Below the pieces are notes generated by a model that had not been told where the DNA came from, made no database searches, and saw only the letters and a program-made list of their open reading frames with translations. Below are positions 54,091-56,307 of a DNA stretch of 64,000 nucleotides, piece by piece (positions within the stretch are counted from its first letter, which is position 1; every line of letters starts with the position of its first letter). Source of the DNA: Beutenbergia cavernae DSM 12333. Lineage in GTDB: Bacteria > Actinomycetota > Actinomycetes > Actinomycetales > Beutenbergiaceae. The position numbers and the translations under genes were made by a program. The DNA is taken from positions 992,001 to 1,056,000 of the forward strand of contig NC_012669.1 of the NCBI RefSeq assembly GCF_000023105.1. Direction: 5' to 3'.

Positions 54091-55146
54091 GTGACGAGCT
54101 GGCCCTGGGCGCGGGAGTTCGCCCCCGAGACGACCTACCTCAACACCGCATCGATGGGGCTGCCGCCGGCCCGGACGACGGCGGCGCTCTCCGAGTCGCT
54201 CGAACGCTGGCGGCTCGGGCGTGCGCAGGCGGCCGACTACGACGCCGTCGTCGAGGAGTGTCGACGCGCCTACGCCACGCTGCTCGGCGTCGACGCCCGC
54301 ACCGTCGCGATCGGCAGCCAGGCCTCGGCGATGGCCGGGCTCGTCGCGGCCTCGCTGCCCGGCTCGGCGCGCGTGCTCGTGGCGGCCGGCGACTTCACGT
54401 CCGTCACGTTCCCGTTCTTCGCCCAGGCGCCCCGCGGGATCGACGTGCGCGAGGTGCCCCTCGACCGGCTGGCTGACGCCGTCGAACCGGGCGTCGCGCT
54501 CGTCGCCGTGTCGGCCGTCCAGTCGGCGGACGGCGCACTGCTGGACCTCGACCGCCTCCGCCGCGCGTGTCGCGCCGTGGGCGCGGAGATCCTGCTGGAC
54601 CTCACGCAGGCCGCCGGCTGGTGGCGCGGCGACGTCACCGATGTCGCCTACACGGTCTGCTCGGGATACAAGTGGCTCCTCGCGCCCCGGGGCACGGGGT
54701 ACCTGACCGTCCGCGCCGACCTGACGGACGCCGTCGTCCCGCACCAGGCAGGCTGGTTCGCCGGCGAGGACCGGTGGTCGTCGATCTACGGCGCGCCGTT
54801 GCGGCTCGCTGCCGATGCCCGCCGGTTCGACGTGTCGCCGGCGTGGCACTCGTGGGTCGGGGCCGCGGCGTCGCTGGAGGTGCTGGCGGAGATCGGCCCG
54901 GCGGCGCGGCACTCCCACGCGACCGGGCTCGCCGCGCGGTTCTGCGCCGGCCTGGGCGTGGCTCACGACGGGTCGGCGATCGTGTCGGTGACGGTGGACG
55001 ACGACGGCGTGGCGGCCCTCGCGGCGGCGGACGTCGTCGTCGCGGCACGAGCCGGACGGACCCGGTTCTCGTTCTACGTCAACAACACGGAGGCCGACGT
55101 CGACCGGGCTCTCGACGTCCTGGACGGCCACGTCCTCCCCGACTGA
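54091..55146 (+). CDS. Class V aminotransferase (cysteine desulfurase-like PLP enzyme)
   Basis: A 351-residue fold-type I PLP enzyme. N-terminal TYLNTASMGLPP is the usual start of class V members; the cofactor Asp is in EILLDLTQAAGWW, and the Schiff-base lysine in VCSGYKWLLAPRGTGYL. The active-site cysteine loop of true cysteine desulfurases is not seen, so a kynureninase-, isopenicillin epimerase-like or desulfurase-like role cannot be chosen. GTG at 54091 is taken from the leaderless promoter. The gene ends 3 bases before a perfect 78-base palindrome. Confidence 0.87.
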   Translation: MTSWPWAREFAPETTYLNTASMGLPPARTTAALSESLERWRLGRAQAADYDAVVEECRRAYATLLGVDARTVAIGSQASAMAGLVAASLPGSARVLVAAGDFTSVTFPFFAQAPRGIDVREVPLDRLADAVEPGVALVAVSAVQSADGALLDLDRLRRACRAVGAEILLDLTQAAGWWRGDVTDVAYTVCSGYKWLLAPRGTGYLTVRADLTDAVVPHQAGWFAGEDRWSSIYGAPLRLAADARRFDVSPAWHSWVGAAASLEVLAEIGPAARHSHATGLAARFCAGLGVAHDGSAIVSVTVDDDGVAALAAADVVVAARAGRTRFSFYVNNTEADVDRALDVLDGHVLPD

Positions 55147-55148
55147 CT

Positions 55149-55248
55149 CGCGAGAGGTTTTCTGCGCGACCGCGAGAGGATCTCTGCGCAGAGATCCTCT
55201 CGCGGTCGCGCAGAAAACCTCTCGCGGTCGCGCAGAAAACCTCTCGCG
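55149..55248. repeat. 78-bp perfect palindrome plus 22-bp tandem repeat
   Basis: Bases 55149-55226 form a perfect inverted repeat with two 39-base arms and no spacer (centre between 55187 and 55188, TGCGCA). It is built from a 22-base unit (CGCGAGAGG then TTTTCTGCGCGAC): one forward copy at 55149-55170, a central 34-base palindrome 55171-55204, and two reverse copies in tandem at 55205-55226 and 55227-55248. It lies between convergent genes, so it can end transcription in both directions, but its size and modular build go well beyond a normal terminator. Confidence 0.92.
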
Positions 55249-55266
55249 AAGGGGGAGTGGGGTCGG

Positions 55267-56307
55267 TCAGGGCGGGGGGAGGGGCGAGTGGTCGGGCGGC
55301 ACGCGCTCGGACTCCGGCGGCGGAGGCGGCGGCGTGCCGTCGCCGAACGGGCGCCCGCCGAGCTCCTCGCGGAAGTGCGGCAGCAGCCAGCTCGCGAGGT
55401 CCGGCCCGGCGGGGACGATCTGCGTCGGGTTGATGTCCTCGTGCACCACGTAGTAGTGCTCCTTGATCTGCGCGACGTCGATCGTGTCGCCGAACCCCGG
55501 CGTCGTGAACAGGTCGCGGGCGTACGCCCAGAGCACCGGCATCTCCGAGAGCTTCTCCCGGTTGCACTTGAAGTGGCCGTGGTACACGGCGTCGAACCGC
55601 GCAAGCGTCGTGAAGAGCCGCACGTCCGCCTCGGTGATCGTGTCGCCCACCAGGTAGCGCTGCTCCGCCAGGCGCTCCGAGAGCCAGTCGAGCGCGTCGA
55701 AGAGGCGCGCGTAGGCGCGGTCGTACGCCCGCTGCGACCCGGCGAACCCGCAGCGGTAGACGCCGTTGTTGACGTCGCGGAACACGCGGGCGTTCACGGC
55801 GTCGATCTCGTCGCGGAGTGCCTCGGGGTACAGCTCCGGGGCGCCCTCGCGGTGGAAGGCGGTCCACTCGAGCTCGAGGTCGAGCGTCATCTGGGCGTAG
55901 TCGTTCGTGACGACGGCGCCGCTCGGCACGTCCACGATCGCCGGCACGGTGATCCCGCGCGGGTAGCCCGGGAAGCGCCGGAAGTACGCCTCCTGGAGCC
56001 GCTCGATCCCGAGCACCGGGTCCCGCGCGCCGGGGTCGAGGTCGAAGGTCCAGCTGCGCGCGTCGTGCACCGGGCCGCACAGCCCGAGCGAGAGCGCGTC
56101 CTCGAGGCCGAGCAGCCGACGCACGATGACCACGCGGTTCGCCCACGGGCACGCCCTCGCCGCGACGAGCCGGTAGCGCCCCGCCTCGACGGGGAAGCCG
56201 TCCCGCCCGTCTGCGGTGATCCGCGTGGTGATGTAGGTGGTGTCGCGGCTGAACTCCTCGCCGGCCGTGACGTAGCTGCCCTGCGTCGAGTGCGCCTGCT
56301 CGGTCAT
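55267..56307 (-). CDS. Glutathionyl/mycothiol-hydroquinone reductase (Xi-class GST, YqjG/ECM4 family)
   Basis: A 346-residue thiol-dependent reductase. The thioredoxin-like N-terminal domain has the catalytic ACPWANR with Cys53 (CPW motif of the Xi class), and the helical C-terminal domain carries YLVGDTITEADVRLFTTLARFDAVYHGHFKCN, a family signature. Enzymes of this class strip the thiol from thiol-conjugated hydroquinones. Actinobacteria use mycothiol rather than glutathione, so a mycothiol adduct is the probable substrate. A proline-rich tail ends the protein. The gene is convergent with the aminotransferase across the palindrome. Confidence 0.9.
   Translation of the reverse strand: MTEQAHSTQGSYVTAGEEFSRDTTYITTRITADGRDGFPVEAGRYRLVAARACPWANRVVIVRRLLGLEDALSLGLCGPVHDARSWTFDLDPGARDPVLGIERLQEAYFRRFPGYPRGITVPAIVDVPSGAVVTNDYAQMTLDLELEWTAFHREGAPELYPEALRDEIDAVNARVFRDVNNGVYRCGFAGSQRAYDRAYARLFDALDWLSERLAEQRYLVGDTITEADVRLFTTLARFDAVYHGHFKCNREKLSEMPVLWAYARDLFTTPGFGDTIDVAQIKEHYYVVHEDINPTQIVPAGPDLASWLLPHFREELGGRPFGDGTPPPPPPESERVPPDHSPLPPP

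Follow-up and report, generated by a model that had tools for sequence, protein, structure and literature searches.

Iterons are short direct repeats that bind protein and are spaced by whole helical turns, and bacterial minisatellites (VNTRs) are tandem, head-to-tail units homogenised within an array. Terminators with a U tract look scarce in high-G+C actinobacteria. REPs lie between convergent and co-directional genes, near stop codons, and those of the CGTC type also occur without an associated transposase, according to the available part of one account (PMC3733652). SbcCD cleaves, in vitro, hairpins corresponding to palindromes longer than about 20–36 bp, as stated in the available part of another (PMC4245961). 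The palindrome described here, from the cave bacterium Beutenbergia cavernae DSM 12333, belongs to a family of dispersed 3′-end repeats that is REP-like in placement but without the structural and transposase hallmarks of REPs.

‘The window’ refers to the whole 64,000-nucleotide stretch of DNA analysed. Within it, two arms of 39 bp (55149–55187 and 55188–55226), 100% complementary and separated by a 0 bp spacer, form a perfect palindrome of 78 bp (55149–55226), recovered by repeat search and centred on 55187/55188 (TCTGC/GCAGA). A sequence-only reading of the same DNA had claimed such a palindrome, with its outer 22-bp unit repeated once more in tandem, and both claims hold: 39 of 39 arm positions pair around the centre, and the 22-mers at 55205–55226 and 55227–55248 are identical. 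The next-longest zero-spacer arm between positions 1 and 55120 is 14 bp, the maximum in simulated dinucleotide-Markov sequences of window size (n = 20) was 8–13 bp, and the number of 39-bp arms expected by chance is about 3 × 10⁻¹⁶. A chance origin is excluded.

The palindrome separates two convergent genes. To its left, on the plus strand, an aminotransferase class V family gene (54091–55146; codon-score gene call, Pfam PF00266, E 2.2e-18) ends in a TGA at 55144–55146; to its right, on the minus strand, a glutathione S-transferase (GST)-like gene (55267–56307; codon-score gene call and Pfam), presumably a glutathionyl-hydroquinone reductase, stops 19 bp from the array. Unit matching resolved two plus-strand units, at 55150–55167 (variable block TTTTC) and 55172–55189 (inner, ATCTC), and three on the minus strand: an inner one at 55186–55203 (ATCTC), which has its GCGC in common with its mirror unit, another at 55208–55225 (TTTTC), and an extra unit beyond the palindrome at 55230–55247 (TTTTC), the first after the right-hand gene's stop. 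This first minus-strand unit is preceded by the flank CCCTTC (55248–55253, minus strand), recognised from column counts of flanks. Rfam gave no match at the palindrome site and one tRNA elsewhere.

Aligned copies define the unit as GCGAGAGG-N5-TGCGC plus a 4-bp linker, with a period of 22, and column counts of first, interior and last units in this genome read GCGAGAGG-N5-TGCGC-NACC (for example CGCGAGAGG-ATCTC-TGCGCGAC). Positions 8–9 are mostly A or T, against 73% G+C in the genome stretches fetched, and in a second subfamily TGGCC replaces the TGCGC end. The earlier suggestion of a duplicated and inverted small repeat was borne out, and the unit is far from single-copy, with many dispersed relatives: the genome holds 164 matches at ≤2 mismatches, where the reversed pattern has 4; GCGAGAGGN5TGCGC occurs without mismatch 123 times (control 2), and CGAGAGG is paired at a distance of precisely 22 bp 181 times (control 0). 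A motif-based search of 48 stretches of the genome (598,547 bases) yielded 62 arrays with 262 units, a density that is not a genome average, the stretches having been picked around known motif matches. Spacing was exactly 22 in 183/187 neighbouring pairs. Most arrays are tandem and head-to-tail, with 2–11 units each in the one strain considered, and the single unit is not a palindrome. At the variable positions, units are more alike within arrays (0.83) than between them (0.54). Conservation of the core is overstated by ascertainment, since the core partly served as the array-search motif, except for the TCGCGAGG arrays of genome G005 and two arrays of G004, which were found by period alone.

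As to where such repeats might otherwise be found, phages and plasmids gave no match; the two-unit pattern was absent from viral contigs, and CGCGAGAGG at 22 bp occurred in nine of them, none array-like by eye. An origin of the arrays from phages or plasmids was rejected on these grounds. The CGAGAGG core of all units is identical to part of the sarcin-ricin loop in 23S rRNA (AGUACGAGAGGA), probably by coincidence; judged by eye, the flanks would not form that loop. In the openly licensed literature, no description of these 22-bp repeats was recognised at the level of titles and abstract openings, a weak negative.

Array placement was assessed with genes called by a simple home-made codon-score finder rather than from the published annotation. 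The gene-context counts exclude nine of the 62 arrays, which lie within a called ORF; the 53 that are intergenic occupy 23 convergent, 28 co-directional and 2 divergent gaps, compared with 76, 286 and 91 among 453 array-free neighbouring gene pairs from the same stretches. Convergent gaps are thus enriched (23/53 vs 76/453, Fisher p 2.6e-5) and divergent gaps depleted (2/53 vs 91/453, Fisher p 0.002). A flanking stop codon lies ≤20 bp away in 46/53 arrays, and the median distance from stop to array is about 7–8 bp (7 bp over the 51 arrays with a flanking stop). Orientation also follows the genes: in co-directional gaps the units face away from the stop in 18 arrays and towards it in 5, with 5 palindromic (binomial p 0.011 for 18:5), so that 5 of 23 single-direction arrays in such gaps run the wrong way. 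Conservation extends to the bases that precede the first unit (CC[CG]TTC or near): 85% of the 75 first units have T at −3, vs 21% of 112 interior units. The sequence past the last unit shows no conservation. The last unit of single-direction arrays ends in GCGG in 11/51 cases, compared with 2/112 interior units, and the idea that this GCGG closes a hairpin as a terminal compensation was dropped, because the frequency of G there (0.37) equals the genome's G fraction. A polar element linked to replication was likewise rejected, array orientation showing no association with replichore (22:19 and 19:15, Fisher p 1.0, if the origin lies near base 1 and the terminus at half length).

Palindromes correspond to the head-to-head minority of arrays (12/62), whose innermost cores lie 32 bp apart in six cases and 27 bp apart in three, the remaining distances being 52, 53 and 85 bp. 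At three of the loci, far apart at genome positions 1047150, 2936051 and 3146873, the palindrome is perfect and has zero spacer, with arm lengths of 39, 41 and 41 bp and with letters and flanks that differ between loci; at two further loci the arms are perfect over 24 and 21 bp. At all five, despite differing variable blocks, the zero-spacer centre falls after the same base of the unit, within the self-complementary GCGC. Spacers of 1–6 nt separate the arms of the remaining perfect inverted repeats in these stretches. The simplest explanation would be that perfect palindromes of this kind arise by snap-back synthesis, or a template switch, at the unit's GCGC. The right-hand array of the window, with three units and a canonical CCCTTC flank, would be the original, as the array of the minus-strand gene; the left-hand array, with two units and no such flank, is probably its mirror-image copy. 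Another genome of the order contains a 61-bp perfect inverted repeat of unrelated sequence (L218:9117–9177, arms 30, spacer 1).

The sequence-only reading had remarked that long spacerless palindromes are usually lost through cleavage by SbcCD-type nucleases. The remark is apt, since a search with the TIGR00619 profile, positive in 13/14 control genomes, did not detect SbcD in this genome; it does not, however, explain the arrays. SbcD exceeded the cut-off in 1/24 family genomes (G022), with weaker matches in five more; it was also positive in G260, and gave 0 matches in this genome (G000), G004, G005 and G006, where a profile miss is not proof of absence. Most family genomes lack both SbcD and CGAGAG arrays, and G260 has both. 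Lack of SbcD is thus no predictor of arrays, and its loss was rejected as their cause: many relatives without SbcD have none. What the absence of SbcD may do is let long palindromes persist, as perfect palindromes plausibly can where it is not detectable; such palindromes in this lineage offer a natural test of what excludes long palindromes from genomes.

Three CGAGAGG cores at 22 bp occur in 2/394 genomes of the class (G000 and G260), and three CGAGAG cores at 22 bp in 6/396 genomes of the order, the clear cases being G000 (107), G006 (72, control 0) and G004 (60, control 3); G613 and G695 have one each, and G667 has no more than its control. The two-unit pattern matched only a groundwater actinomycetote MAG (L071/G416) in genome_contigs, a collection described as covering 84,980 species, from which records near this genome may be left out. 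Pairs at 22 bp number 38 in G416 and 33 in G260. The CGAGAG core is common to the arrays of G000, G004, G006, G416 and G260, and the tails differ: the unit is CGCGAGAGG-AAGTC-CGTCCTTT in G006, CGCGAGAGG-ACCTGTACGTGTT in G416, GCCGAGAGG-TCACTGGCTGACC in G260 and CGCGAGAGG-ATTGCCGACCCTC or close in G004. A period search that used no motif found 22-bp (or 44/23-bp) arrays in G004 and G005, with cores CGAGAG or TCGCGAGG. Twenty stretches (382 kb, two with N runs) belonging to other genera in the order and class showed no 22-bp array. In G004 arrays (L226, L246 and L148, for example) the first unit past the gene end is often the variant CGAGAGCTTTG, and later ones are mostly CGAGAGG.

The GST-like gene to the right of the palindrome, selected blind to arrays elsewhere, has matches in 23/24 family genomes, its own included. 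The G004 orthologue is followed, 4 bp past its stop, by a 22-bp array of CGCGAGAGACTT... units, both tandem and inverted, and the G005 orthologue, also 4 bp past its stop, by a 22-bp array of GGGGGTACTT... units; the other family orthologues showed no 22-bp array in the downstream bases inspected by eye. A different inverted repeat, CGAGAACGGCC, lies 3′ of the GST-like gene in G006 (L138). One G006 gene has arrays on both sides, and its homologue in this genome (53% identity) is likewise flanked, with matching orientation; no resemblance between the remaining neighbours is seen within the compared stretches, and the contig of G006 stops in one of the arrays. The doubly flanked gene in this genome (L051:5820–6731, about 1939319–1940230) has a weak match to AbiEi_1 (22.8 bits, cut-off 22.2). 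Among 24 genes that end at arrays in G004, G005, G006 and G416, and beyond the two GST-like orthologues, three have homologues ending 42, 53 and 109 bp from arrays of this genome (53, 40 and 36% identity), a suggestive figure from a comparison that covered only the stretches around those arrays. A like layout written in other letters hints at an undescribed gene-end element.

The best explanation of these observations (unit structure, 22-bp period, copy number, 3′-end placement, head-to-head form and recurrence in relatives) is one that we hold tentatively, as possible if a little short of probable: the palindrome represents an array from a dispersed, lineage-specific 22-bp family that follows stop codons, made palindromic by snap-back, persisting where SbcD is not detectable, and serving as a set of putative DNA sites for a bound factor. 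The common core, the two-turn spacing and the post-stop position are fitted best by rows of DNA-binding sites. With its fixed spacing of two helical turns, the conserved core would then present a row of sites to a sequence-specific host factor, which is the least certain step, and this putative factor might mark or block the gap between transcription units, as a roadblock terminator or boundary element. Assembly error is scarcely credible as the source of the palindrome. Perfect palindromes are hard to assemble, but three of them, with 39–41-bp arms at distant loci and with different letters and flanks, make such an error unlikely, and the genome was published as completed, according to the available part of its report (PMC3035217). 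Mobilisation of the units by a transposase, as REP/BIMEs or MITEs, is largely refuted and very improbable, for all that the reported placement of REPs is that of the arrays (available part of PMC3733652). The sequence-only reading had offered a REP/MITE-like element and a search for a REP-associated transposase, and in the strict sense this did not stand up: the unit is neither palindromic nor a stem-loop, the arrays are mostly head-to-tail, and no Y1/REP transposase (PF01797) was found in the genome with a profile that was positive in 5/14 control genomes.

A role as RNA, in which transcribed arrays act as bidirectional terminators or stabilise mRNA 3′ ends, appears unlikely as a general account. 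The window array, folded as RNA, reaches −93 and −90 kcal/mol on the two strands (z −13.3 and −12.1), and the 18:5 sense bias in co-directional gaps is what such a role would favour; the bidirectional terminator of the earlier reading is possible for this copy, which would fold into a very stable hairpin on both strands, but is weakened by the lack of a U tract at the array and by the 50/62 arrays that are not head-to-head and hence non-palindromic. In four of the five genomes with several units, moreover, tandem units fold no better than shuffled ones (mean z +0.13 for 41 distinct units in G000, −0.02 for 8 in G004, +0.27 for 7 in G416 and +0.14 for 8 in G260). Strong hairpins are predicted for the units of G006 (mean z −2.62 over 4 distinct units) and for G613's single unit (z −1.82), which fits an RNA role there; beyond these two an RNA hairpin is unsupported as the common denominator, and RNA structure is not shared across genomes. 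A serious rival, although one we consider somewhat unlikely, is that the arrays are neutral or mildly selfish minisatellites, 22-bp units that spread and slip in 3′ gaps, where they are tolerated, and are purged by selection from promoters and genes. Plain slippage would give the homogeneity seen within arrays, depletion from divergent gaps could by itself produce the 3′ bias, and the tails vary freely among genomes. Against this stand the exact period and common core, which recur across genera in at least five genomes, the A or T at positions 8–9 in a genome of 73% G+C, the conserved CC[CG]TTC flank outside the repeat, and the retention of the G004 and G005 arrays at the same gene end. On the best reading the arrays are probably bound as DNA by a putative factor, and a protein-bound boundary or roadblock between transcription units is our preferred reading of its function, still unproven. 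More doubtful is a broader proposal, that the arrays form a new class of gene-end element, two-turn-spaced sites, read by a putative actinobacterial factor, that are kept at the same gene ends over genus-level time as the letters are replaced genome-wide in concert (site-factor co-evolution). If the arrays do act at gene ends, they would represent a transcription-boundary device of high-G+C actinobacteria and would illustrate how dispersed sites can evolve in concert where no transposase is visible.

Several known systems share part of this pattern. In convergent gaps, palindromic copies can fold on either strand into a long hairpin, as intrinsic (Rho-independent) terminators do, but the arrays are zero-loop, lack a U run and are mostly non-palindromic. 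With REP/BIMEs (GTAG- or CGTC-tagged) they share the form of small, dispersed, many-copy repeats, head-to-head pairs, and a position 3′ of genes that is rare in divergent gaps, as described in the available part of PMC3733652; they differ in that the unit is not a hairpin (mean z +0.13), where a REP is an imperfect palindrome with a 5–13 bp stem, in the GTAG or CGTC tag, none being noticed at unit ends, in the fixed 22-bp period with head-to-tail arrays dominant, and in the lack of a Y1 transposase (RAYT) in the genome. The short direct repeats at whole-turn spacing recall iteron-like rows, which differ in belonging to one origin, the arrays being dispersed at chromosomal gene ends. Their head-to-tail tandem units, alike within an array, resemble those of minisatellites or VNTRs, but here one core and one period recur at many loci in several genera, with an orientation tied to the genes.
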